Below are positions 48,346-60,923 of a stretch of 64,000 nucleotides of DNA, piece by piece (the stretch's first letter is position 1; the number at the start of each line of letters is the position of its first letter). Source of the DNA: [Pantoea] beijingensis (GTDB taxonomy: Bacteria; Pseudomonadota; Gammaproteobacteria; Enterobacterales; Enterobacteriaceae); assembly GCF_022647505.1 (NCBI RefSeq), contig NZ_CP071409.1, positions 2,170,001 through 2,234,000 of the forward strand. The letters are read 5' to 3'. Position numbers and translations under genes: made by a program. The notes beneath the pieces are model-generated. The model was not told the origin of the DNA. It searched no databases and was given only the letters and a program-made list of their open reading frames with translations.

Positions 48346-49803
48346 TTACGGTGACATAATATTGAGTGAGTCCGCAGCAGGATGTTGCTGCAGCGATATA
48401 GGCGGTGCAAGTTTTAACGTGATCCAGTTTGAGGTTACGCGTTGTTGCTTGCTGTCTTCCAGCGTTACCGATAGACGATATTCATTGCTGGCTTCAGGAG
48501 CACTGTCCCACACGGGCATAATGACTGACCATCCCTGCGGGTCATTATTGTTCTCAGGTGGCGTCAAACTCAGCGCCTGCGTATCACCCTGCCAGCTTAC
48601 GCGGATAATTTTATTCGCGGCACGGATCTGCAGCTTAAGTGGCAGATACTCGCCGGGCTGGACCTGCCACGGAGGCGTCGCAAGGAAAACACCCAGCGTT
48701 TTCCGCTGGCGAAACTCCAGCACTGGCGTGTTGCTACGTTCGACGCTGTTATAACGACTCCCGCGCAGCGAGTGGGCTTCAGCCACGTTATCGGCAGACA
48801 GTTGTTTGCTCAGGGCTACACCCGGCCGGTAGTTCAGCCGTAACCCGAGCTGATCCTGCGAGACACCGCCTTCCCCTTCTTTATGCGACGCCGTCAAGGT
48901 GATCAGCGGTACTGGTGTGTAATTAACGCCCAACTTAACTGCGACCGGATTATTATATCCACTGCCGTTATTAAACAGATCGACGCTGTTCCCAAGGTAC
49001 TGCTCATACGTTACGGATAGACCTAACTGGCGATAAAAAGGGAGATAGCCTTGGGTTGTAATGTCGTAGCCGCGTGCCATCCTCTGTTGAGCACGGGCAG
49101 AGCTATTACGCCAACCTGAAAGCGGCGAATAGTAATTGGCGGAAAAGCGTAGGTAATCTCCCCATGCTTCAGTACCAACCGACGCTCGTTGTAATCCACT
49201 CTCTAAAAGACGATCGACAAAAGCGTTGTAGCCTAATAACCATTTCCCTGCGATCACGCGTTGACCCAGACCCGCATTCCCTACCGTGCCATCATCAGTC
49301 TGCTCAATGCCCAACTGGGTAAACGTCAGATATTGATACTTATCCTGCCAGGGCGTAAAAAGCTGCACACCACTGCCATTCAGATTACCGTCCATATCCA
49401 CGTTAAGCGCCAGGCTGGCAGTGCCGTAAGGTGAAAGCAACGATTGCCCGGTGTTAGCAACCCGTTCAGCAATTTCATCACGAAAGTGATTAAACGCCCA
49501 GCGGCTTGCCTGCAGGCGCAATGAGTCATCACTGTTATGATTCATGCTGGCTTCACCGATACTTTTCGCAACCGTTGCCAGTTGTCTGGAGAACGCCTCG
49601 CTGTCGCTGACGTTTCCAAGCTCGGGCAGCGTGCTCTGCATGTCAGTAAAACGAGAAGGATTATCGAAAGGGTAGGCTTCAACCGTGGAGTCCACCTGCA
49701 GCGCATATGCTGCAGGGAAAACGTTACTCATGCATCCCAGCACCAATAGCACGACGTGCTTTTCTTTGGCGAATGACTTAACTGCACAGTTCATACTTAA
49801 CAT
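48346..49803 (-). CDS. ychO: Inverse autotransporter (intimin/invasin-like) YchO
   Basis: Outer-membrane beta-barrel of the intimin/invasin family, 485 residues, close to E. coli YchO (464). After a signal peptide (KHVVLLVLGCMSNVFPAAYA), the barrel is recognised by NVDMDGNLNGSGVQLFTPWQ-type strands, GQRVIAGKWLLGYNAFVD and YLPFYRQLGLSVTYEQYLG. A single immunoglobulin-like domain follows; there is no long adhesin passenger. Start is uncertain: ATG at 49803 (MLSMNCAVKS) is preceded by AAGGG, while 49794 would also keep the signal. Confidence 0.88.
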   Translation of the reverse strand: MLSMNCAVKSFAKEKHVVLLVLGCMSNVFPAAYALQVDSTVEAYPFDNPSRFTDMQSTLPELGNVSDSEAFSRQLATVAKSIGEASMNHNSDDSLRLQASRWAFNHFRDEIAERVANTGQSLLSPYGTASLALNVDMDGNLNGSGVQLFTPWQDKYQYLTFTQLGIEQTDDGTVGNAGLGQRVIAGKWLLGYNAFVDRLLESGLQRASVGTEAWGDYLRFSANYYSPLSGWRNSSARAQQRMARGYDITTQGYLPFYRQLGLSVTYEQYLGNSVDLFNNGSGYNNPVAVKLGVNYTPVPLITLTASHKEGEGGVSQDQLGLRLNYRPGVALSKQLSADNVAEAHSLRGSRYNSVERSNTPVLEFRQRKTLGVFLATPPWQVQPGEYLPLKLQIRAANKIIRVSWQGDTQALSLTPPENNNDPQGWSVIMPVWDSAPEASNEYRLSVTLEDSKQQRVTSNWITLKLAPPISLQQHPAADSLNIMSP

Positions 49804-50123
49804 GGACAAACTATACCCTTAAACATTCAGGTCGCAGAGCAACGGCAAGGTCCGGGGACACGAGCCGAGACGTTGACCGAAGGATAAAGCAAGCAGCCAA
49901 CTTACCTGCACTCTGCAACAGAACGTATGTTTTTAAGAATTTTATGATCCAGTTAACAGATTTTCATAAAAGAGTAATGGCTATCGTAACATATTGCCAG
50001 GTGGAAAATAAAAAACCGCTGAAATAGCCATATTCCCCAGCGGGTTATTGACCTGCACGGTGGCAATGTTCCCAATTACAGACCAGGCTTGAGTATATTT
50101 ATCAACCATAAGAGTCTTTACCT
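49804..50123. other. Divergent region ychO/PEBP gene
   Basis: 320 bases holding promoters for both genes and a leftward hairpin with a T-run near 50010-50043 that may end a small RNA (listed separately). The AT-rich part (49921-50012) has no supported ORF. Confidence 0.45.
50010..50085 (-). ncRNA. Candidate leftward small RNA with rho-independent terminator
   Basis: On the minus strand CCGCTG/CAGCGG pairs with an interrupted inner stem (GAATA/TATTTC) and is followed by six T residues at 50015-50010. A TATACT hexamer lies at 50097-50092 on the same strand, which would place the start near 50085. There is no leftward gene upstream to use this terminator, so an RNA of about 76 bases between ychO and the PEBP gene is plausible. 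The -35 is weak, and I match no known sRNA. Confidence 0.3.
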
Positions 50124-50669
50124 ATGATGCGAAAATGGCTTAGCAGTGCCCTGTTACTTGGCTGTTTCTCGGCCAGCGCTCAGGATATTTTTACGCTCAG
50201 TTCGCCTGACTTCACTGATAATGCAATGCTGGAGGTGAAATTTGCAGGTAATACGGCGAGTAATGCCAGTTGTACAGGTGAGAATGTCTCCCCGGCCTTA
50301 AGCTGGTATTACGCACCCGACGGGACAAAAAGTTTCGCACTCATATTGTTCGATCATGAAGGAGCCAGGGGGTTAGGCGTAACGCATCTTGTCGCCTACA
50401 ACATCCCCTTTCAGCGCAGCAGTTTTGTACAAGGAGAATTAACCGAAGGCAAGGGTTACACTGGCGGTAAAAATACCCACGGCACGCTGCGCTACTCTGG
50501 TCCATGCCCGCCAGCAGGCAGCGGCGCACACCATTATGTCTTCACCTTAATTGCTACCGACCTGCAGGCTAACGCACTGCCAACAGGGCTCACGCACGGC
50601 GCGCTGTTAACCCAACTGAAAGGTCATACCCTTGGCGCAGTGAGCCTTATTGGTCGTTACGGTAATTAA
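50124..50669 (+). CDS. Periplasmic PEBP (YbhB/YbcL)-family protein
   Basis: Raf-kinase-inhibitor-like protein of 181 residues with a signal peptide (RKWLSSALLLGCFSASAQ). The PEBP fold is shown by the ligand site in SFALILFDHEGA and GPCPPAGSGAHHYVFTLIATDLQA. E. coli YbcL is a periplasmic homologue. Function in bacteria is largely unclear. Two tandem ATG codons begin it. It is the last conserved gene before the T6SS-like module and has no clear functional link to it. Confidence 0.85.
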   Translation: MMRKWLSSALLLGCFSASAQDIFTLSSPDFTDNAMLEVKFAGNTASNASCTGENVSPALSWYYAPDGTKSFALILFDHEGARGLGVTHLVAYNIPFQRSSFVQGELTEGKGYTGGKNTHGTLRYSGPCPPAGSGAHHYVFTLIATDLQANALPTGLTHGALLTQLKGHTLGAVSLIGRYGN

Positions 50670-51171
50670 ACCTGACTATCTGGTATTCATTACGGACTCT
50701 CTGCTCAGGCACGCGTCGTACAGAAGGAAATGTGATCGATACGACGTTGTGCCCACTCAGTGATAAAAAATATGCGACTGTTAATCGTGTTTATTCATGG
50801 ATAATGGTAAATTTATCTTATGTAAAAAAACACCACCTGTAATCAGGAGTACTGCATCGCCCTCGTCCTTCATTTCACTTATCGTCCTAAGTATAAATTC
50901 ACTTAAACAGAAAGCCACTAAGCCAAGTCTGAAGCGGGTTTTGCCCTGCTCGTCATTTGCATTTAACACGATCATGTTTATCATGCAATGGTTTAAAATC
51001 CCAAAAGTGTCATGTAGACTGACCGCAACTTTATGTTTATGTAAAACTGAGTAATTTTTGAAGCAGGTACATTATGATCGCACCGAATAAAGCAACCTTC
51101 ATTTCGGGCATATGTACGAAAACACGGCCTGAAATAGTTCAGGCTCACTGATGACATTCACGAGGAATATT
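50670..51171. other. Intergenic region before the T6SS-like module
   Basis: About 500 bases, AT-rich. It should hold the promoter of the module. Opposed ORFs of 85 (50797-51054, plus) and 67 codons (50781-50984, minus) overlap each other; neither has a Shine-Dalgarno site. No repeat or attachment site is recognised. Confidence 0.4.
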
Positions 51172-51663
51172 GTGAAAACTGGTATCGCGTTAACATTGTT
51201 AGCTGTGCTTACCGTGGCCGGATGTAAGGCCCCGCCGCCACCGATGACGGATGAGACTATGGTGACCAGCGTTGTTAATGGCGTCACGTTGACCCATCGT
51301 AATGCGGTAAAAGCACCACTGGCGTTTACCCCGGTAAATCAAACCTATCGTGCTTTATATAACGCATCGGTTATGACCCTGCCGGATTATGGCGGGAACG
51401 TGGTGGAACACCTGGAGAATGGCAAACCTTTCACCGTTCTGGGTGAGGTCGAGAATCACTGGCTTGCCATTGCCAGAACCGATGACACACGTCTGATCGG
51501 TTATGTGCCATTCAAGGCAGGAGTCATCAGCGATCGGTATGAAGCAACGATCCGTAGCGATCGCCCACGACCACGTAAGTCAACCAAACAGGTTTGCGTC
51601 GACGTGGGGGGGACCAGCAAAGCGTGCCGGAAGAACAATACCGCAACCTGGATCCTCGAATAG
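51172..51663 (+). CDS. SH3-domain lipoprotein, first gene of the T6SS-like module
   Basis: 163-residue putative lipoprotein, with signal MKTGIALTLLAVLTVAGC and lipobox VAGC. The rest has a bacterial SH3 (peptidoglycan-binding) look: LYNASVMTLPDYGGNVVEHLENGKPFTVLGEVENHWLAIART broken as NGKPFTVLGEVENHWLAI, then a basic tail. The GTG at 51172 has GAGGAA 5 bases upstream; an ATG 7 codons earlier would spoil the signal. It sits where a TssJ lipoprotein would stand, but sequence does not show TssJ homology. A hairpin (51673-51694) separates it from tssL. Confidence 0.75.
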   Translation: MKTGIALTLLAVLTVAGCKAPPPPMTDETMVTSVVNGVTLTHRNAVKAPLAFTPVNQTYRALYNASVMTLPDYGGNVVEHLENGKPFTVLGEVENHWLAIARTDDTRLIGYVPFKAGVISDRYEATIRSDRPRPRKSTKQVCVDVGGTSKACRKNNTATWILE

Positions 51664-51672
51664 CCCAGATCT

Positions 51673-51694
51673 CAGAGGGGCATCGAACCCTCTG
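51673..51694 (+). terminator. Hairpin between the SH3 lipoprotein and tssL
   Basis: CAGAGGG/CCCTCTG is a 7-bp stem with an 8-base loop shortly after the lipoprotein stop. It lacks a T-run and may attenuate rather than end transcription. Confidence 0.35.
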
Positions 51695-51758
51695 ATACCG
51701 TGCATTCCCTTTACATACTCTGATGGATCAGATGTTTCACCAGGATTTATAACATTCG

Positions 51759-52979
51759 ATGACGCTTGAAACTTCTGCACATGATGAAAGTCCTGCAGGT
51801 TCAGAAAACCCATTGCTCAGTGCGGCTGCACCGCTGCTGAACGCAATTGTACAAATTCGTCTTGCCGCCACTCATGACGATCCGGCGGGGTTGCGCCATC
51901 AGCTTATTGAAGAAATCCGTCAGTTCGAAACGCGCTGCAAGAAAATGGCATTGCCCTTCGAGACGATCATCGGGACCCGCTACTGCTTATGCAGCGTACT
52001 GGACGAGGCTGCTGCACAAACCCCCTGGGGAACGCGTGGCGTATGGTCAGGTAATGGCTTGCTGGCGACATTTCATAATGAAAGCTGGGGTGGCGAGAAA
52101 TTTTTCCAGTTGCTTTCGCGGATTTCGCAATCTCCCCATCAACATTTATGGCTGCTTGAAGTCATCCATTATTGTTTATTGCTCGGCTATGAAGGACGCT
52201 ATCGGGGTGTCGAACACGGCCGGACGCAGCGCGACCTGATTCGCTCCCGGCTGGCACAGCTTATTGAAACCACTCGCGGTGTGTCGCACTACCAGCTTGA
52301 TACACAAATTGTCGTGCGTCCATCACAGCAAAGCTTGTGGCGTCCCCCTATTCCCTTATGGGCATGCATTACGGTAATAGCCTTTCTCGGGTGTTTGATC
52401 TATACCGGGCTCAACTGGCGTCTGGGTAATGCAGCCGAACCCCTGTTGCGTGCTATTTATCAGACGCCGCTGCCCGACATGTCTACCAACCGGCGCGCCT
52501 CTCCCGCGCAGGCTTTGTTGGATCTGCATAACCGTCTGAATGATTTGGTTTCCACCGGACAAGCCGAGGTAAGCGATGGGCCTTTTGGCAGCCGTGTCAT
52601 TTTATCCAGTGACAGGCTGTTTAACGACGGTGCGACCACCCTGAATACGCCAGGCCGCGCGTTAATCGCACGCGTGGCCTTCTCAATGAGAGATGTCAAA
52701 GGAATGGTCCTGGTGACTGCGTATACCGATAATGTCTTGCCCGGCAGTAGTCGCTTTGCCTCGAATTATGAATATTCGCTGGCGCTGGCCAACAGTGTGG
52801 CTTCCCAGTTAGACCAGCAACTGTCTCCGGGACATCGCGTTAAGCCCGAAGGCCGCGGGGACAGTAACCCAATCGCAACGAATGATAATCAGCAAGATCG
52901 TGCACGTAATCGTCGTATCGAAATTACACTGTTTGCCATGCCTACGGCCGGCAAACCGACTCAACAGGGAATAAGGTGA
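51759..52979 (+). CDS. tssL: T6SS protein TssL (DotU family) with C-terminal OmpA-like domain
   Basis: Membrane-complex component of type VI secretion. 406 residues: a cytoplasmic DotU domain (about 20-200), one membrane segment (LWACITVIAFLGCLIYTGL, about 206-224), and a periplasmic OmpA-like peptidoglycan-binding domain (about 270-395) with VTAYTDNVLPGSSRFASNYE and ARNRRIEITLF. DotU hallmarks RYCLCSVLDEAA and SWGGEKFFQLL are present. It overlaps tssM by 4 bases. All known domains are intact, unlike TssM. Confidence 0.92.
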   Translation: MTLETSAHDESPAGSENPLLSAAAPLLNAIVQIRLAATHDDPAGLRHQLIEEIRQFETRCKKMALPFETIIGTRYCLCSVLDEAAAQTPWGTRGVWSGNGLLATFHNESWGGEKFFQLLSRISQSPHQHLWLLEVIHYCLLLGYEGRYRGVEHGRTQRDLIRSRLAQLIETTRGVSHYQLDTQIVVRPSQQSLWRPPIPLWACITVIAFLGCLIYTGLNWRLGNAAEPLLRAIYQTPLPDMSTNRRASPAQALLDLHNRLNDLVSTGQAEVSDGPFGSRVILSSDRLFNDGATTLNTPGRALIARVAFSMRDVKGMVLVTAYTDNVLPGSSRFASNYEYSLALANSVASQLDQQLSPGHRVKPEGRGDSNPIATNDNQQDRARNRRIEITLFAMPTAGKPTQQGIR

Positions 52980-54991
52980 TGTGTAGTAACCCCTTCTTTT
53001 CACTGCTCAATAGCCGCCTGTTTTGGGGTTTTATTGGGATCACCGCCCTGTGCAGCCTTATCTGGATGTTGGGGCCGTTGCTAACAATCAATGCCACGCA
53101 ACCGCTGGATTCTCCATTTAATCGTCAGGCCCTGATTGGCCTCTGCTATTTTTGTTGGATACTGTTCCAACTTATTCCAAAGCTTTATAGTGCCTGGTTT
53201 AATGGCAAACTGTTAGATAACTTGCAGTACAAGACCGGCGATAATTCAGATTCCGCAGCAACCGAAGCGCTGCTGGCTGCTCGCTTTAGCGAAGCTGTCG
53301 CGATGCTAAAGAAAGCGCATTTCTATCAAAAATCGTCCTCCGCATGGTTTGATCGCTACAGCGCCCAATATCTGTATCAACTGCCCTGGTATATGATAAT
53401 CGGTGCCCCCGGTGCTGGGAAAACCACGGCCTTAATTAACTCTGGCCTCAATTTTCCGCTAAGCGATAATCTGGGTAAACGTGCGGTACGTGGCGTAGGG
53501 GGAACACGTCATTGCGACTGGTGGTTTACCGATCGTGCCGTATTGCTCGATACAGCCGGACGTTACACGTTGCAGGAGAGCATTCGTGCACGTGATGCCG
53601 CTGAATGGCAAAGCTTTATTAAACTGTTGAAATATTATCGTGCCCGCCAGCCGATCAATGGTGTGATCATAACCATTAGCGTTGCTGACTTACTCAGTGA
53701 TTCAGTTGAGGCTCGTTTTACACAGGCCTGCGCGTTACGCCAGCGTCTGAAAGAGCTTCATCGCCAAACCGGCATCCATTTCCCGGTCTATATTATGGTG
53801 ACGAAAACTGACTTACTTAAAGGGTTTATGAGCTATTTTTCCGCTCTGGATAAACAGCAGCGCGATAAAACTTGGGGTTTCACCTTTCCCTGGGAGCCAA
53901 ACCGCGTCAGCGAACATGCACTTAATGCACTTTTTGATCGACAGTTTCATCGGCTTTCATTACAGATATCAAATAATCTCGCCGAAAAAATGGCGCAGGA
54001 AACGGATTTAATCCAGCGGGCAGACTGCTTTCTCTTCCCCCAGGAGTTCGCCTCACTGCGCCCATTACTGGCCGAATATCTCGACATTATTTTTTCACCG
54101 GACGAGGAAGATGTTGCCTGGTCCGCGCGCGGACTGTTTTTTACCAGCGGCACGCAGGAAGGACTGCCTTTCGATCGCGTAATGGGCGCACTCACGCGTA
54201 AACTGCAGTTACCGCAGGCAAAAAACCATTCGATTGCAGCGTGGGATAGCGTAACCCGCACTGCCCCTATTCCCGCCAGCAAAGGCCAGAGTTTTTTTAT
54301 CCATGACCTGCTCACAACCGTAGTGTTTAGAGAGTGTGGGCTGGCTGGCAGCAACCGGGCCTGGGAGTATCGTAACCGCCTGTTTCATTGGCTGGTCTAT
54401 AGTCTGTTAGCCATTACGTTATGCGTCACCTCTGGCTATTGGGGGCTGAGTTATTATCAGAATAAGCGTTACCTGCAACAGATCGAAGCAAGAATGCCGG
54501 ATATTTATACTCAAGGTAAAAAATTTGCCACCGGCAAACCTGAAAATATGCTCAGCCTGTTACCTTTTTTAAATGAGCTTGCTGCCCTGCCGCAACCGGA
54601 CTATTTTTCACTTGATACGCCTCCGCTTAGTATGCGCGTGGGGCTTTATCGGGGTGACCAGGTCAGGGATGCTGCAGCAGTACTTTATCAGAATGCCCTG
54701 AAAACCCTGCTGTTGCCGTGCATCGCCGAGCAAATTACCGCGACGCTGCGAAATAACAACGGCGTTGATAGCGAATTCAGTCGTAATGCCCAGCGGGCTT
54801 ATCAAATGCTGTATCAACCCCGCAGCTACGATGGTGAGTTTTTACATGGTTGGGTAATGCAGAATTTACAGCGGACACTGCCACCTAATGTGACCGCGCG
54901 CGATCTACAGCAGCTTGATGAACATTTGAGGCAATTACTCGACCGCCAGATTCAAAGCTCACCGTATGCGCGCGATAATACGCTTAATTAG
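52976..54991 (+). CDS. tssM: T6SS protein TssM (IcmF), truncated to the N-terminal 671 residues
   Basis: TssM is an inner-membrane NTPase that links TssL to the outer-membrane TssJ; typical proteins have 1,100-1,250 residues. This one has TM1 (about 13-36), TM2 (about 49-66), Walker A GAPGAGKT (142-149), Walker B VLLDTAGRY (188-196) and TM3 (about 465-488), then only about 180 periplasmic residues before a clean stop. The large periplasmic part that binds TssJ is missing. Only 101 bases separate the stop from the next start, and no remnant coding frame is obvious. The cytoplasmic half looks under selection. Confidence 0.88.
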   Translation: MMCSNPFFSLLNSRLFWGFIGITALCSLIWMLGPLLTINATQPLDSPFNRQALIGLCYFCWILFQLIPKLYSAWFNGKLLDNLQYKTGDNSDSAATEALLAARFSEAVAMLKKAHFYQKSSSAWFDRYSAQYLYQLPWYMIIGAPGAGKTTALINSGLNFPLSDNLGKRAVRGVGGTRHCDWWFTDRAVLLDTAGRYTLQESIRARDAAEWQSFIKLLKYYRARQPINGVIITISVADLLSDSVEARFTQACALRQRLKELHRQTGIHFPVYIMVTKTDLLKGFMSYFSALDKQQRDKTWGFTFPWEPNRVSEHALNALFDRQFHRLSLQISNNLAEKMAQETDLIQRADCFLFPQEFASLRPLLAEYLDIIFSPDEEDVAWSARGLFFTSGTQEGLPFDRVMGALTRKLQLPQAKNHSIAAWDSVTRTAPIPASKGQSFFIHDLLTTVVFRECGLAGSNRAWEYRNRLFHWLVYSLLAITLCVTSGYWGLSYYQNKRYLQQIEARMPDIYTQGKKFATGKPENMLSLLPFLNELAALPQPDYFSLDTPPLSMRVGLYRGDQVRDAAAVLYQNALKTLLLPCIAEQITATLRNNNGVDSEFSRNAQRAYQMLYQPRSYDGEFLHGWVMQNLQRTLPPNVTARDLQQLDEHLRQLLDRQIQSSPYARDNTLN

Positions 54992-55092
54992 CAAGCCGAT
55001 GTCACGGTAGCTCAATGCCGGATTCGCTAACCATAGAACACCGACACCGGCAATATGGCATCCCGACAACTCAGGCTTTAAGGATTAAGGTT

Positions 55093-55782
55093 ATGCCAGA
55101 AAAATGTAGCCCCGGCTGGTATGGGAAACTTCCCGTTACCGGGGACTTTCTTCAGCAACGGCTCACGGAACATATTGTTACCGGTTGGGCAAACTGGTTT
55201 CAGCAGGGGCTGACCCACTGGCATCACCATACAGCTGCCTCAACGACGGAATTCTTACGGGCACCGGTATGGAATTTTATTCTGCCATTAACCCCCGGCG
55301 TTCAGCGTGTTCAGATGGGCTGTTTATTACCCTCTTGCGATCGAATTGGGCGCGCCTGGCCCCTACTGGCACTCTGTAGCTTCCCCCTGGCCGACTGGTT
55401 TCCCGGTCAGCTCGCACTTTCAGGCGACTGGTATCAAAAGTTGGGCGGCATACTGCTAAAAGGCGTGCGTGAGAGACAGTCGCCGACGGAACTTGAGGCT
55501 AATCTGATCGCCCTGACGCCCCTTCCAACACGGGAAAATCAGCAATCCATGATTGTGGGGTATGATGATTTGCCCATTAGCCTGAGCTGGCGTGGCGTGG
55601 CCGATCATTTTGATCCACAGAAATCCATCAGCTACTGGTGGAGTAACCGCAGCGATGGTTATCCGCACGCAACACATAAACACAGCGGAACGCTGACGGC
55701 GGAGCTCTTTTCTCTATTATTTAATCCGGCGGCGGGGGCGCAGCCGGGGCGTAACGGGCTCTATCCGCCCATGTTTGAATAG
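55093..55782 (+). CDS. tagF: T6SS-associated protein TagF
   Basis: Member of the TagF/SciT family, 229 residues; in Pseudomonas aeruginosa TagF represses T6SS assembly after translation. It begins MPEKCSPGWYGKLPVTGDFL, with the family signature GWYGKLPxxGDF, and contains GCLLPSCDRIGRAWPLL. ATG at 55093 has AAGG upstream; a longer ORF from 55015 would add 26 residues that look unlike the family. Overlaps the next gene's ORF region but not its chosen start (55820). Confidence 0.9.
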   Translation: MPEKCSPGWYGKLPVTGDFLQQRLTEHIVTGWANWFQQGLTHWHHHTAASTTEFLRAPVWNFILPLTPGVQRVQMGCLLPSCDRIGRAWPLLALCSFPLADWFPGQLALSGDWYQKLGGILLKGVRERQSPTELEANLIALTPLPTRENQQSMIVGYDDLPISLSWRGVADHFDPQKSISYWWSNRSDGYPHATHKHSGTLTAELFSLLFNPAAGAQPGRNGLYPPMFE

Positions 55783-55819
55783 CGTTATGCCATTACGGCC
55801 TTCTATTGCAGGAAAATTC

Positions 55820-56989
55820 ATGCGATTTACCCTTATTCAAAACTACACAGAGATGCCGCTAACCACTGTTGATTTCTCACCTCCGGGGGGCACAATCGGT
55901 CGCAGCCTTGATAACGATCTGGTTCTGCCGGATGAAGAACGGGTTATTTCACGCCTGCAGGCACTGGTGCACGTTGCGAATAACGGAGAGTGTCGTCTCA
56001 CCAACCTGGGTAGCGTAACGGCGGTTGTGCTGAATGGCACGCCGCTGGAACGTGGCCGTCAGGTCGCGTTACAGCACGCCGATCGGCTCGGTATTGGCGA
56101 TTATACTCTTGAAGTTAGCGACCCCAACATCCCGGTATCACCGCAGGAAGATCCTTGCGACCCCTTGGTCCTTTTTGGCCAGCAGGAGGACTCGACGCTC
56201 GATCCTCTCGGAATTCTGCGACCTGCAGAACCGCCGGCCCATCCACCGATCGGTGACGAACCCGCCTCAGAGTTGCCTCCCGTTCGCAGCGCTAAAACCG
56301 GCGGTGCACGGTTAGATATCGATCCGTTACCGCACGAGGCCATTGGACGTAGCGGAGATGAAGACTGTACCGGCGATACGTTATTAGTTGAAGCGCTTCT
56401 TGAAGGCATGGGACTGGATCGTAACCAAAGCGCCATGCAGCTTACGGAAGAACAGATGCGGATGACGGGCCGAATGCTGAGTTTGTTTTCCCAGGGAACG
56501 GTCGCGTTGCTCTCTTCCCGCTCGATCCTGAAGCGCGGCGTAAAAGCAGAGATGACCATGATCCTCAATGAGGCAAACAACCCGTTTAAAATTTTGCCGT
56601 CCGGAAAAACCGTACTGATGCAAATGTATCAGAGCCAAATGCCCGGCTTTATGCAGCCTGAACAGGCAGTACGGGATGCGCTGGTTGATTTACAGGCGCA
56701 TCAGTTGGGTATGATTTCAGGCATCCGCGCTATTATTGCCGCCATGCTGCAATCTTTTAATCCGCAACATTTAGAAGAAGAAGCAAAACGCAGCGGCGCA
56801 CTACCGAAAATGGCCCTCTCCGCTTCACGTAAAGCGGCACTGTGGGACTATTTTATGCGCAATTATTGCCATACCGCTGGCGAGATAGAAGATGATTTCC
56901 ATACGCTCTTTGGTGAAGCCTTTTTGCATGCGTATGACGTTGAAGTTAATCAGTATAAAGACTCACAAACGAAAGCGGATGACGAATGA
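55820..56989 (+). CDS. FHA-domain T6SS protein (TagH/Fha1-like)
   Basis: 389-residue forkhead-associated protein, the phosphothreonine reader of the T6SS threonine phosphorylation pathway. FHA residues are GRSLDNDLVL (27-36), ISRLQALV (43-50) and NLGSVTAVVLNG. The usual His of SxxH is Gln here. A linker (about 110-190, Pro-rich) leads to the C-terminal T6SS-FHA domain with LLVEALLEGMGLD and LLSSRSILKRGVKAEMTM. Start at 55820 has CAGGAAAA upstream. Ends in an ATGA overlap with the phosphatase gene. Confidence 0.88.
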   Translation: MRFTLIQNYTEMPLTTVDFSPPGGTIGRSLDNDLVLPDEERVISRLQALVHVANNGECRLTNLGSVTAVVLNGTPLERGRQVALQHADRLGIGDYTLEVSDPNIPVSPQEDPCDPLVLFGQQEDSTLDPLGILRPAEPPAHPPIGDEPASELPPVRSAKTGGARLDIDPLPHEAIGRSGDEDCTGDTLLVEALLEGMGLDRNQSAMQLTEEQMRMTGRMLSLFSQGTVALLSSRSILKRGVKAEMTMILNEANNPFKILPSGKTVLMQMYQSQMPGFMQPEQAVRDALVDLQAHQLGMISGIRAIIAAMLQSFNPQHLEEEAKRSGALPKMALSASRKAALWDYFMRNYCHTAGEIEDDFHTLFGEAFLHAYDVEVNQYKDSQTKADDE

Positions 56990-57762
56990 ATATCGCCTTT
57001 GCATCAACGTCACAAACCGGTGCCAGAGAGAGTAATCAGGATCAAATTGGAACTATGCTGGGAGAAAACAGCGCCTGTTTTATCGTCTGCGATGGCGTCG
57101 CGGGTTCACCTGGCGGCGGCGAAGCGGCAAAAATAGCGTGCCATACATTGTTGAGGACGCTGCAGGATAACAAACATTTTACCGCCGAGGATACCCGACT
57201 GGCGGTGGAAAAAAGTGCAAGAACCCTTCGGGAAGCACAAGGGATTAATCCGAAACTTCAGCACATGAGCACCACGCTGGCTGCCCTGTTTATCGATCGT
57301 GATTATTCGCTCTCATGGTGGGCGCACGCAGGCGACAGCCGCATTTACCACTTCCGACGGGGCTATATCAATCGCGTCACAAGTGACCATAGTCTGGCCC
57401 AACAGATGAAGGAAGCCGGTTATGAAAATACCGGAATTAACAGCAATTTACTTTATAATGCGCTGGGCGTTGATACCGCAGGTTATGTGGCCTTTAGTGA
57501 GATGCTTACGCTTGAAGATGGCGATGCTTTTTTAGTCTGTAGTGACGGATTTTGGCTGAGTCTGCAGGCAGAAGAGATGGAACTGGCATTACGGATGGTG
57601 AACTCACCCGATGAGTGGCTGACCCTGATGCTAAAAGCCATCGACCGGGGTGCCGCCAGCGATAACTTAAGCGCTATTGCGGTATGGGTTGGCTCCCCGC
57701 AGGAAACGACGTTGTTATATTCACTGGCTGATTCGGCGCGCTTGATGCCGCCACGCGATTAA
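56986..57762 (+). CDS. pppA: PP2C-family Ser/Thr phosphatase (PppA-like)
   Basis: 258-residue metal-dependent phosphatase that should reverse PpkA phosphorylation of the FHA protein. Metal ligands are Asp19 (SNQDQ), Asp36-Gly37 (CDGVAG), then HAGDSRIYHFRRG, VCSDGFW and AASDNLSAIAVW, covering all PP2C motifs. It overlaps the FHA gene by 4 bases, so coupled translation is likely. The catalytic set appears complete. Confidence 0.9.
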   Translation: MNIAFASTSQTGARESNQDQIGTMLGENSACFIVCDGVAGSPGGGEAAKIACHTLLRTLQDNKHFTAEDTRLAVEKSARTLREAQGINPKLQHMSTTLAALFIDRDYSLSWWAHAGDSRIYHFRRGYINRVTSDHSLAQQMKEAGYENTGINSNLLYNALGVDTAGYVAFSEMLTLEDGDAFLVCSDGFWLSLQAEEMELALRMVNSPDEWLTLMLKAIDRGAASDNLSAIAVWVGSPQETTLLYSLADSARLMPPRD

Positions 57763-57776
57763 CACCAAGGAACGAT

Positions 57777-58727
57777 ATGAAATATTGGTTACCCGGGGTT
57801 GCCATGCTGTTGATGGCTTTTACTACCCACGCGGAAAATTATCGCGTTGTCTATTCACCCAATCTGTCGCTTGAGGTGTTTATTGATAACGTTGAGAGCA
57901 ATGCGTTGCAGGACTGGTGTCAAAAATCCCTGCATCTGCGTATTGTTTCCGGTGCGCGTAATGAATCACAGATATTGGATAACTTTCTTCCCCGCGTCGG
58001 TAAGCTATTAACCAGTCAGTGCAGTAAATTGACCAATCTGTCATGGCAAATGACCAACCGGCAGGGTACGGCTCTGGCCAGCGGGACAGCGGATAATACC
58101 AACGACTGGAAACCGGTAGTGACCGCGGATGCCACGGCAACAGCGAATGCATCCAATGCGGCGCCATTAGATCTCTCCCGCCCGGCAAACAGCGCATCAC
58201 TGCCACAATTTGAACTGCCCGGTGGTTGCCGTTTCAGGACCTGGTGGGATGAAAACAGTCAGTCAATATTTATACCCGACGATCGAGCCCTGACCTGTTC
58301 ATCTGAAGGCTGGCTTGAAGGAAGTAGCCAGATTACGCGCGCGCACGGAGATAAAACGACGACAACCGTAGTCGACTTTTACCAGGGCTATCCGCTGGTC
58401 AATATACACGCGGCCAAGAACAGCATGAACGTTGTGACAGTCAACAATCAGCGGATGGTCGTTGCCGCTCAGGACGCTCCCGATAGCTGGCTGGTATTAC
58501 CATTTAATCCTGCGTTGCATGCTTGGTCTTTCGGCGGCACGCTACTGGTGAAAATGGATAAAAGTCAGGCTGATGATGTTGCCCGTGTCAAAGCCCATGT
58601 CGATGCCCTCAAAAAAACCTGGACACCCCTGGTCGCTTCCGAAGTTAAGATGACCGTGTTACTGGTTGACGATCTTCATGCCGACCTCGCCGATCCGGCC
58701 ATTGGGGCATACCGTACCGTTAATTAA
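57777..58727 (+). CDS. Unknown exported protein within the T6SS-like module
   Basis: 316 residues with a signal peptide (MKYWLPGVAMLLMAFTTHA) and hence probably periplasmic. I recognise no domain. The mature part begins ENYRVVYSPNLSLEVFIDN, has an Ala/Thr/Asn-rich linker near residues 115-140 (ATATANASNAAPLDLSRP), four or more Cys, and a C-terminal part of alternating strands. It starts 14 bases after pppA and ends 61 bases before the kinase gene, so it belongs to the same transcript. It may sense or bind something on the periplasmic side of the kinase; that is speculation. Confidence 0.7.
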   Translation: MKYWLPGVAMLLMAFTTHAENYRVVYSPNLSLEVFIDNVESNALQDWCQKSLHLRIVSGARNESQILDNFLPRVGKLLTSQCSKLTNLSWQMTNRQGTALASGTADNTNDWKPVVTADATATANASNAAPLDLSRPANSASLPQFELPGGCRFRTWWDENSQSIFIPDDRALTCSSEGWLEGSSQITRAHGDKTTTTVVDFYQGYPLVNIHAAKNSMNVVTVNNQRMVVAAQDAPDSWLVLPFNPALHAWSFGGTLLVKMDKSQADDVARVKAHVDALKKTWTPLVASEVKMTVLLVDDLHADLADPAIGAYRTVN

Positions 58728-58788
58728 TTGCAGGCGTACCGCCTGCGACGATCAGGTTGCTAGCATTAACGCTCAGAGAGTGTCAAAT

Positions 58789-60207
58789 ATGTCGGGAAAT
58801 GAAAATCAGAAAAACGTGCCTAATGCATTACCTGCCGGGTATCGTTTTAATGAGTTTGAGATTAAAGAAGTAATTGGTGGCGGCGGATTTGGCATTGTTT
58901 ATCGTGCGTGGGACCATTTGCTTGAACGCTCTATTGCCATCAAAGAGTATATGCCGGTATCGCTGGCCATGCGAAACGATGACCTGAGCCTGACGCTGCG
59001 GGGTGAACGTCATCATAAAATTTTCACTGCTGGCCTAAATAGTTTTATTCATGAGGCGCGCCTGCTGGCCCGCTTTAATCATCCTGGCCTGCTGCACGTA
59101 TTACGTTTTTGGGAAGAGAATGGCACCGCCTATATGGGCACGCTCTACTATAGCGGCATAACGTTAAAGGAGTGGCAGCAGAACAGCCCTGAACGCATTA
59201 ATGAAGCATGGATAAGGCGACTACTGCCCCCACTTTTTAGCGCCATTAACACCATCCACCTCGCCGGTTACCTGCACCGGGATATCTCACTGGATAATAT
59301 TCAGATCCAGGATAACCAATTGCCAGTTTTGCTGGATTTCGGTTCAGCCCGTAAGGAAATAGGCAACCTCTCCGATGAAACCGAAATCATGCTTAAACCC
59401 GGTTTCGCCCCTATCGAACAGTACAATGAAGGATGCGATAGCGAACAAGGACCCTGGACCGATATTTACGCTCTTGGCGCGGTATTACACGCACTGGTCA
59501 CCGGTGCGCCACCACCAATCAGCGTCGTGCGCTGTATTGAAGATAATTATCAACCTCTGGTTGAACGTTGTCCCGATGGTTATTCACTGCCGCTACTGCA
59601 CGCAATTGATCGGGCGCTGGCCCTGCAAGCTGATGAGCGCCCCCGCACCATAGATGAATTCGCCGCCCTGATTAATCTGCCAGTAAGCGATGTCCAACAA
59701 TTGGTCACCGCGGTGGCGCCGCTCGTCAGTCTTGATGACAAGCCCGAGGTCGCCGAAGCCGTCGAGCCTGTTATTCTGGCCGTGAATCCGGCGGCAGGTG
59801 CGGCAGAAAATGTAGTCACTGGAAGCACACGCCGTCTGTCGCGTCCGCTGATAGCATTAAGCGCGCTTGCCGTCGTCATGGTTATTGGTCTGATCTGGTT
59901 GCTTGATAGTGGCAATGCACCGCAGCAGGAAGTCGGGCAAGCGGCTCTTTCGGAGGGTTCAACGCCATCCCATTCTGACGCAGCCGCATCACCAGCCCTC
60001 GCCACCGTCTATCTACAATTAAAAAACGGTGAGAACGTGCGCCTGAATGGCACCAGAGTCACCCCCCAACCCGCCAATCGCGGCTATGCCTCACTGCATC
60101 TGGCAGCAGGGGAATACACCCTTGAGATTGAACGTCAGGACGGCGCGCACTCACAGCAGTTGAAGATCGATCGGGCGGGTACCTGGCTGATTAACCCTGG
60201 CTTATAA
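58789..60207 (+). CDS. ppkA: Membrane Ser/Thr protein kinase (PpkA-like)
   Basis: 472-residue Hanks-type kinase. Glycine-rich loop GGGGFGIVY (30-38), catalytic Lys52 (AIKEYMP), Glu89, HRDISLDN (163-170) and DFGSA (183-187) are all present, so it should be active. A single membrane segment (about 353-372, PLIALSALAVVMVIGLIWLL) is followed by a 95-residue periplasmic PEGA-like domain. In P. aeruginosa, PpkA phosphorylates Fha1 to start T6SS assembly. Start at 58789 is chosen by similarity; the ORF extension overlaps the upstream gene. Confidence 0.9.
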   Translation: MSGNENQKNVPNALPAGYRFNEFEIKEVIGGGGFGIVYRAWDHLLERSIAIKEYMPVSLAMRNDDLSLTLRGERHHKIFTAGLNSFIHEARLLARFNHPGLLHVLRFWEENGTAYMGTLYYSGITLKEWQQNSPERINEAWIRRLLPPLFSAINTIHLAGYLHRDISLDNIQIQDNQLPVLLDFGSARKEIGNLSDETEIMLKPGFAPIEQYNEGCDSEQGPWTDIYALGAVLHALVTGAPPPISVVRCIEDNYQPLVERCPDGYSLPLLHAIDRALALQADERPRTIDEFAALINLPVSDVQQLVTAVAPLVSLDDKPEVAEAVEPVILAVNPAAGAAENVVTGSTRRLSRPLIALSALAVVMVIGLIWLLDSGNAPQQEVGQAALSEGSTPSHSDAAASPALATVYLQLKNGENVRLNGTRVTPQPANRGYASLHLAAGEYTLEIERQDGAHSQQLKIDRAGTWLINPGL

Positions 60208-60218
60208 CGGCATTTACG

Positions 60219-60242
60219 CTATCCCCACGATGCTGGGGATAG
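60219..60242. terminator. Bidirectional hairpin between convergent ppkA and chaC
   Basis: CTATCCCC/GGGGATAG is an 8-bp stem with an 8-base loop, just outside both stop codons. No T-run; function inferred from position. Confidence 0.5.
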
Positions 60243-60245
60243 GTA

Positions 60246-60923
60246 TCATCCTGCCGATGACTGCTTGCAGGTTTGTAGCGCACGCACCCGCTGCACTAAA
60301 TCTTTCAGGCAGTCGTCCTGCATACCCCGTTTAATTAACTCTTGTTCCAGCGAAAACAGATATTGTGCATTGGTCCCCAGTGGGCCACTGGCGTGCGCAA
60401 TTAGGGGAGCAATAGTGCCCGGGCAAGAATCCGCTTCATAATGTGGATGACGCGGATCCATCACAAACACCATCGCCGTAACTTTACGCCCATCCTCAAG
60501 CGTTAGCTCACACCAGGTTGGCAAATAGCACCCGGTCACCATTTCGCGTTTCCACAACAGCGTCAACTCTTCGTGCAGCATCTCTTCCGGCAAACGAAAC
60601 GCCAACCCGCTGGTTTTTCCCCCTGCTTTCAGGGCCAACATACGGCCCGGCTGAAGCGATGTGCCCCGCCCTGCAGTTAAGCGCAGGCAAAAGGCGCGGT
60701 GCCAACCCTCAAGGGTTCCGCTCGCCACCTCATCCGATTCAAAAACAGGATTCCACATCAGTGAGCCGTAGCCAAATATCCACACCGGACTATTATCAGG
60801 CCGGCATGCCAACGTCGCGGCCAAAGATGCAGCGCGTTGTTCACTACTCCACAGCAGCGATTCCTCAATAGTGCCATAAGCAGTTTTACAGTCTGCTTTC
60901 ACCAGGAAATCACGCGTCAACAT
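60246..60923 (-). CDS. chaC: Glutathione-specific gamma-glutamylcyclotransferase ChaC
   Basis: Degrades glutathione to 5-oxoproline and Cys-Gly in the cytoplasm. 225 residues with the substrate-binding motif VWIFGYGSLMWNP near residue 47 and ChaC blocks GWHRAFCLRLTAGRG and SCPGTIAPLIAHASGPLG. Start at 60923 has AGGAGG 5 bases upstream, a strong site that excludes the six-codon extension. chaB and chaC share a strand; chaA is divergent, as in E. coli. Confidence 0.93.
   Translation of the reverse strand: MLTRDFLVKADCKTAYGTIEESLLWSSEQRAASLAATLACRPDNSPVWIFGYGSLMWNPVFESDEVASGTLEGWHRAFCLRLTAGRGTSLQPGRMLALKAGGKTSGLAFRLPEEMLHEELTLLWKREMVTGCYLPTWCELTLEDGRKVTAMVFVMDPRHPHYEADSCPGTIAPLIAHASGPLGTNAQYLFSLEQELIKRGMQDDCLKDLVQRVRALQTCKQSSAG

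Follow-up and report, generated by a model that had tools for sequence, protein, structure and literature searches.

An eight-gene locus of [Pantoea] beijingensis related to type VI secretion as a possible stand-alone envelope platform

The closest described relative of the locus reported here is a partial type VI secretion system (T6SS) locus of Pantoea and Erwinia; what is said of published work in the present text refers to excerpts of the papers cited. This locus has been described as T6SS-2, a set of eight syntenous genes of which four are conserved T6SS genes, and was regarded as "partial and potentially non-functional"; it may have arisen by partial duplication of T6SS-1, and in E. amylovora and E. 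pyrifoliae only four of its genes are left (De Maayer 2011, PMC3235180). Its P. ananatis counterpart, PA T6SS-3, lacks 11 of 13 core genes; its role was given as unknown, and strong selective pressure was inferred from its conservation (Shyntum 2014, PMC3942780). The incomplete cluster has been omitted from a mutant set (Kamber 2017, PMC5561584), and T6SS-2 was found in all other strains compared in a P. agglomerans study (PMC9641835). We have analysed the corresponding locus at positions 51172-60207 of a stretch of 64,000 nucleotides, hereafter the window, which covers positions 2170001-2234000 of the 4.107-Mb single-contig genome of [Pantoea] beijingensis. The locus is the control layer of a Serratia-type T6SS with TssL and part of TssM, and with nothing downstream of them. 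With slightly better than even confidence, we consider it to be a phospho-switched, peptidoglycan-linked, stand-alone TssL/TssM platform of the envelope, which is neither a secretion system nor a regulator of T6SS-1.

The run of eight plus-strand genes that a first-pass annotation had read from the letters of the window is real, according to a check of the open reading frames (ORFs) and to family matches. These genes and the element upstream of them are as follows.

50964..51059 (core 50986-51019), plus strand: conserved upstream element, probable promoter/operator of the operon (alignment)
51172..51663, plus strand: tagV, SH3b lipoprotein with a lipobox-like LTVAGC (NF041850 TagV, 198.8 bits)
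51759..52979, plus strand: tssL (DotU) with a C-terminal OmpA domain and one transmembrane helix (PF09850, 5.8e-62; PF00691, 5.2e-08)
52976..54991, plus strand: short tssM, 671 amino acids (TIGR03348, 1-627 of 1168; PF14331; PF06761, 1-143 of 308 only)
55093..55782, plus strand: tagF (PF09867, 5.4e-31)
55820..56989, plus strand: fha/tagH, FHA domain and T6SS_FHA_C (PF00498, PF20232; start supported by relatives)
56986..57762, plus strand: pppA, PP2C Ser/Thr phosphatase (PF13672, 6e-16)
57777..58727, plus strand: rtkS, periplasmic partner/activator of PpkA (matches to PDB 9k0l, 9k1p and 9k1u)
58789..60207, plus strand: ppkA, Ser/Thr kinase (matches to PDB 5hnv and 9k1u chain D; start at 58789 supported by relatives)

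TagV is the best NCBIfam match of the first gene, yet its score of 199 bits is below the cut-off of 300 bits; comparison with relatives places the start at the GTG at 51172, which is that of a conserved GAGGA...GTG. The tagF start has been placed at M27 (55093), as the alignment with most relatives begins only at about residue 23-27 of the ORF as listed. Hydropathy puts the transmembrane helix of TssL at residues 200-218 and that of PpkA at residues 354-372, with a periplasmic domain behind the latter. The short TssM consists of a transmembrane pair, a nucleotide-binding domain, a third transmembrane helix and a helical periplasmic domain, and the later IcmF domains are unmatched.

The seventh gene, called an exported unknown in the first-pass annotation, has no match in Pfam or NCBIfam, and it can now be named. 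Its product matches the solved RtkS chains 9k0l, 9k1p and 9k1u (phmmer, 5.3e-43), and its structure, predicted from an alignment of 44 out of 125 RtkS-family proteins (120 listed) with a mean predicted local distance difference test score (pLDDT) of 84, matches 9k1u, "crystal structure of Rtks and Ppka complex" (Foldseek, 1.2e-21; 40% identity; root-mean-square deviation 1.5 A over 186 columns). Judged from these sequence and model matches, gene 7 is RtkS. The model is also weakly like the type II secretion pilotins EpsS/AspS (Foldseek probability 0.87-0.89, E 0.14-0.27). The kinase domain of PpkA matches PDB 5hnv, a solved PpkA (4.1e-152), and its residues 404-471 match chain D of 9k1u, the kinase chain of the RtkS-PpkA entry (4.4e-13); RtkS and its periplasmic partner domain in PpkA are both in the locus. 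In Serratia, the RtkS gene lies directly 3' of fha and pppA, which is also the order in the window, and both PpkA stability and full Fha phosphorylation require RtkS, which binds to the periplasmic domain of the kinase (PMC6082577). TagV of Serratia is an outer-membrane lipoprotein and a proposed peptidoglycan binder (PMC7614798). TagF in Serratia is a negative regulator of membrane-complex assembly.

The catalytic residues of the signalling enzymes, noted as intact at first reading, proved to be invariant in every intact orthologue aligned: the glycine loop, Lys, HRD, N and DFG of PpkA (59/59), the metal-site Asp/Gly of PppA (60/60), and the Gly-Arg-Ser and Ser-Arg of the FHA domain (63/63). 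The Walker-A Lys and DTAG of TssM are likewise invariant (66/66), and the Asp and NRR motif of the TssL OmpA domain are kept in 65 orthologues. Since gene 1 is TagV-like and gene 7 is RtkS, an input, a kinase, a phosphatase, a reader, a repressor and a TssL/TssM target are all present. Thr246 of Fha, invariant in 63/63 and with surroundings much alike in the T6SS-1 Fha proteins that cover the site, is a candidate PpkA site from its conservation; to equate it with Thr438 of Serratia (PMC6082577) or Thr362 of Pseudomonas (PMC3953482) would be a guess from position. Phosphorylation of TssL at a site of the Agrobacterium Thr14 type was considered and rejected: the N-terminal Thr/Ser positions of TssL are not conserved, and Fha Thr246 is the better candidate.

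Other T6SS genes of the window's genome lie apart from the locus. In the 4.107-Mb chromosome, tssC was found only at 698801 and 2722026, the nearest about 0.49 Mb from the locus, tssF only at 722898 and 2702690, hcp at 703985, 1384055 and 2717294, and tssM, besides the window copy, at 716631 and 2704695. None of tssC, tssF, hcp or other tssM was found within the window, where tssA, tssB, tssE, tssG, tssK, clpV and vgrG were not searched. With these genes elsewhere and a TssM match that stops at 627/1168, the locus does not pass as a functional T6SS. The first-pass annotation had named complete core genes directly linked to the locus as a finding that would speak against its reading, and no tssC, tssF or further tssM is so linked. 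A BLAST comparison of the eight window proteins with ORFs of at least 100 amino acids, taken from the two T6SS regions and from 16 kb beyond the window, gave a match for the OmpA domain of TssL only, and the window Fha is the sole T6SS_FHA_C protein of the genome; the two other T6SSs are therefore without a visible signalling set of this kind. The window TssM has no second match in its own genome, and the two TssC proteins score 416 bits, compared with 451-463 bits for TssC near T6SS-1 TssM in relatives, so that the genome has no T6SS-1.

As to these two T6SS loci themselves (697904-726224 and 2701073-2723825; L003-L008), their TssC proteins are 100% identical and the ORFs covering hcp 99% identical, while TssK, TssL, TssM, TssF and TssG are only 36-62% identical; the sheath and tube genes of two otherwise diverged loci look homogenised. 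The hcp at 1384055-1384447 is an orphan, apart from the T6SS loci of the genome.

INDEPENDENCE from T6SS-1 has been followed in a genus sample of 37 genomes including the window's. The short tssM is present in 35/37 (34 intact, one in two pieces) and the tssM of T6SS-1 in 24/37; the short tssM occurs without T6SS-1 in 11 genomes, and T6SS-1 without the short tssM in 0. All eight genes are intact in 11/11 of the T6SS-1-less genomes with the short tssM and in 19 of the 23 T6SS-1 genomes from which the locus was fetched. The T6SS-1 absences fall at five separate places on a concatenated-protein tree, which follows the locus itself and not the species. Erwinia pyri (G165), which belongs to these 11, has neither tssC nor tssF. 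Among 31 further genomes reached through named loci (L035, with the same species name as L031, being excluded), tssC was found in 28 and is absent in P. latae, P. stewartii CCUG 26359 and the metagenome-assembled genome (MAG) UBA2655, and no tssF was found in these three. P. latae keeps all eight genes, and the locus of UBA2655 is interrupted by a contig end. The eight genes are intact in 30/34 genus loci, window counted, and in 27/33 further named loci, three of the six misses being cut by a contig end. Named loci duplicating a genus genome (L010, L011, L013, L014, L016, L017, L019, L024, L039 and L071) were excluded, and the locus of G151, an assembly with 10% contamination and two locus copies, was not taken in.

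These distributions bear on a rival reading, in which the locus serves a T6SS encoded elsewhere in the genome as a trans-acting accessory regulator or as a decoy, for instance through Fha, PpkA or TssL shared with T6SS-1. The paralogy of its parts with T6SS-1 parts (TssM identity 50-56%) and the likeness around Thr246 would fit such a role, as would the presence of T6SS-1 in 24/35 locus-bearing genomes and its absence from both locus-less ones. Nevertheless, we regard it as unlikely: 11/35 locus-bearing genomes have no T6SS-1, and substitution ratios are low in both of the measurable clades among them; four genomes have no tssC and no tssF (E. pyri, P. latae, P. stewartii and the MAG); in the window genome, BLAST matched the signalling proteins at neither T6SS locus, and a second T6SS Fha is missing; and the only genus members with partial gene loss are four genomes that carry T6SS-1. 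The first-pass annotation had left two options, a circuit acting on a T6SS elsewhere and a stand-alone envelope device. The second is favoured because the genome has no T6SS-1, because the other T6SS loci have no signalling matches and the T6SS_FHA_C protein is single, and because the locus is found intact without tssC and tssF; the first is less likely.

A damaged membrane anchor, as the short TssM had been described at first reading, finds no support, since its relatives end at the same point. This was seen both in a 27-sequence alignment and in a family sample of 149 genomes, evenly drawn and with at most four TssM candidates scored per genome, in which TssM matches ending near 630/1168 occur in nine genomes among the matches listed. 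In the alignment, invariance reaches as far as residue 670, one short of the end of the window protein at 671, and invariant positions number 62/141 in the periplasmic part (530-670) and 157/335 in the nucleotide-binding region. An extra tail of 25-36 residues is carried by 24/26 other short TssM proteins, with the first dozen residues well conserved (Leu in 25/26) and the rest variable. The periplasmic part at 490-660 is predicted to be helical (block pLDDT about 70-87) in a model based on the 27 sequences. A fold search with this model, which is of low confidence overall, gave weak GTPase-like matches only, none with E <0.001, and TssM has no match among PDB sequences at E 0.001. The short TssM looks, from sequence comparison, like a settled protein form and not a torn end, and the part it lacks is the stretch with which TssM of known systems crosses the periplasm and reaches TssJ (PMC7614798).

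In the TssM tree, 66/66 short TssM proteins form a single clade with support 1.0 and a long stem, on a branch separate from T6SS-1. Their sister group is a set of 24 enterobacterial T6SS-1 TssM proteins (Erwinia, Mixta, Kosakonia and others; joint clade 0.947), and five Pantoea-type T6SS-1 TssM proteins branch outside this joint clade. The split therefore predates a recent duplication within the genus. A different short TssM has been seen in another genus (G017:C1:1448087-1450264; profile 3-700/1168, 820-aa frame, 478 bits), perhaps an independent reduction.

Selection on the eight genes was estimated as the ratio of nonsynonymous to synonymous substitution (dN/dS) by the Nei-Gojobori method, on pairs that are not independent and of which many have dS near 1. 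The ratio is below 1 for every gene in all pairs measured, and it is 0.04-0.13 in the six pairs of a four-genome clade without T6SS-1. For the means, pairs with a median dS of 0.1-1.2 were used, the close pair G176/G177 (median dS 0.016) being left out; mean dN/dS is 0.10-0.18 for 13 pairs both without T6SS-1, compared with 0.08-0.16 for 25 pairs both with it. The switch and its inner-membrane base are kept under selection even in some species that have lost the machine, and the switch may therefore have a function separate from it. The first-pass annotation had named frameshifts and relaxed selection in the kinase and phosphatase of relatives as contrary evidence, and here the outcome is mixed: the ratios are low in measurable pairs, but these genes have been lost from four genomes of the E. 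amylovora group, as told below.

The surroundings of the locus are conserved as well. The upstream element of about 95 bp, 5' of tagV, can be aligned in 30 genus sequences and 31 other Erwiniaceae loci. Its core pattern stands at the locus in 34/37 genus genomes, with no second copy at up to three mismatches, and is absent in the two locus-less genomes and in G182; 28/35 true core matches have zero mismatches, and the pattern was not found in 100 shuffles of the window. A reversed-pattern control gave nine scattered matches at the three-mismatch tolerance, and a lone match at three mismatches therefore means little. A co-regulon through this element was rejected, as the genus has no second copy. 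A search of the element against Rfam gave one chance-level match only. Among 61 upstream regions, the CpxR, sigmaE, PhoP and Fur patterns used gave no match and the RcsAB pattern used matched only in L025; sigma-70-like sites over 50600-60400 number 10, against 10.7 in shuffles. The gene chaC adjoins the locus in 31/33 fetched genus loci, which fits vertical inheritance of the locus. At window positions 48346-49809, on the minus strand, a 487-aa exported ORF gives the impression of an inverse-autotransporter beta-domain protein. An anti-phage kinase module was also considered for the locus and rejected, as the PADLOC matches of kinase, phosphatase and TssL look like common kinase, PP2C and OmpA/MotB domains.

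Taken together, the evidence just about favours a standing envelope device of Erwiniaceae that works without any T6SS machine, that is, a T6SS membrane base that has been put to use in sensing or scaffolding and whose TssM has a self-contained periplasmic domain of conserved form. In this device, periplasmic RtkS would bind and stabilise the periplasmic domain of PpkA, and PpkA would phosphorylate Fha, with Thr246 as the candidate site. Phospho-Fha may then overcome TagF and drive the assembly or nucleotide cycling of an inner-membrane platform of TssL and short TssM, and PppA would reset the switch; we infer this order of steps by analogy with Serratia (PMC6082577). The OmpA domain of TssL would tie the platform to peptidoglycan, and TagV may act from the outer-membrane side. 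Since the locus has no TssJ, distal TssM, baseplate, tube or sheath, the known trans-envelope channel is impossible and the output should be local, presumably an envelope-integrity or peptidoglycan-linked scaffold.

Several observations weigh against this stand-alone device. Two genus genomes (G178, G179) have neither the short tssM nor T6SS-1, so that the locus is absent in 2/13 genomes without T6SS-1 and in 0/24 with it. Most relatives of the window TssM continue for about 34 residues more, the first dozen of them well conserved, and the window protein lacks this tail; the TssM model as a whole is of low confidence (mean pLDDT 68). The 13 T6SS-1-less pairs have slightly higher dN/dS than the T6SS-1 pairs in 7/8 genes. 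This is because of four pairs with G170, and the remaining nine give a mean of 0.05-0.12; the G170 pairs reach 0.48, with near-saturated dS, a long branch and a G+C content of 0.85 at third codon positions of TssM. Saturation and codon bias may explain these rates, and relaxed selection in the G170 lineage is possible. In the window lineage no pair has dS <1.2, and dN/dS covers other lineages only. P. stewartii is without tagV, TssL is shortened in P. wallisii, and several genes are shortened in Ca. P. haifensis. Papers on expression, phosphorylation, phenotype or mutants of the locus were not found in open-licence full text. In the E. amylovora group (G150, G163, G166 and G180), tagV, pppA, rtkS and ppkA are lost, fha is lost in two genomes and tssM is frameshifted in one. 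The G170 locus (L121) is the fastest-evolving copy in the genus, its TssM being 56% identical to that of the window, and has its eight genes intact.

All four E. amylovora-group genomes carry T6SS-1. Deletions in all three T6SS clusters of E. amylovora have reportedly had varied effects on exopolysaccharide and competition, in a study known to us at second hand through its citation by the authors of the mutant set mentioned at the outset. The upstream element, here 5' of tssL, is kept in the group together with tssL and tagF, and tssM in three of the four loci (L118-L120, L122), with dN/dS of 0.12-0.18 for TssL, TssM and TagF. Such losses with low dN/dS in the rest mean that either TssL, TssM and TagF are the functional core or decay is ongoing, and the remnant is possibly a minimal core. 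A protein cluster labelled E. amylovora (P0015) holds a full RtkS and may come from another strain or be mislabelled.

The gene loss and tssM frameshift of this group, which are also on record (PMC3235180), would be expected of a functionless, decaying relic of a duplicated T6SS-1-like locus, the possibility raised in the first description; so would the lesions in a few Pantoea, the fast evolution of G170 and the absence of most core genes. We nevertheless hold a relic to be quite improbable, because the common TssM end and the eight intact genes extend across deep divergence, dN/dS is well below 1 in all measured pairs, the catalytic residues are invariant in 59-66 orthologues, and the upstream element and the chaC adjacency have been conserved.

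A further observation that is uncomfortable for the stand-alone device is that E. pyri, despite its absent tssC and tssF, has four orphan hcp matches, one of them a short fragment. This would suit a minimal export device in which TssL and short TssM handle an orphan Hcp without sheath or baseplate, and TssL/TssM of Agrobacterium does bind Hcp in a phosphorylation-dependent manner (PMC3953482). Yet such export seems very improbable: without a TssJ gene in the locus and a distal TssM there is no known outer-membrane route, the locus has no hcp, the N-terminal Thr/Ser positions of TssL are not conserved, and extra hcp is common in the group anyway (9 matches in G119).

Regulation of T6SS by threonine phosphorylation has usually been read through the firing of the weapon. 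Here the weapon is missing while the whole switch and the membrane proteins it targets remain, so that the effect of the switch on TssL/TssM could be studied in isolation. If the stand-alone device is true, what has passed for a probably dead T6SS remnant would be an envelope system conserved in a family associated with plants and insects.

Among known systems, the threonine phosphorylation pathway of Serratia marcescens Db10 (PMC6082577) shares PpkA, PppA, Fha, TagF and RtkS with the locus, and in both rtkS adjoins fha-pppA and tagF adjoins tssM; RtkS homologues have been noted in related T6SSs of Pantoea and E. amylovora in the same paper. In contrast to Db10, where the circuit governs a complete T6SS, the window locus holds nothing downstream of TssL/TssM. 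The PpkA-TssL-Fha switch of Agrobacterium tumefaciens (PMC3953482) has kinase, Fha, TssL and TssM in common with it, whereas the TssL target Thr14 of that switch has no conserved counterpart near the TssL N-terminus of the window type. IcmF/DotU of type IVB systems are distant homologues of the window TssM and TssL, and a type IVB remnant was ruled out, as the window TssM reaches 626 bits with TIGR03348, the T6SS TssM model, and 56 bits with NF038226, the type IVB IcmF model. T6SS-2 (PMC3235180), which is the same as PA T6SS-3 (PMC3942780), is like the window locus in its eight collinear, syntenous genes of about 9 kb including icmF, dotU, FHA, kinase and phosphatase, and in its occurrence in both genera; the partial Pantoea/Erwinia T6SS locus that the first-pass annotation had referred to is the published one, and the locus as such was already known. 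The names RtkS and TagV, the conserved TssM end, the upstream element, codon-level selection, and retention without T6SS-1 or without tssC are absent from the excerpts of these two papers. What is added here is the identity of the parts, the persistence of the locus without T6SS-1 and its likely active role.

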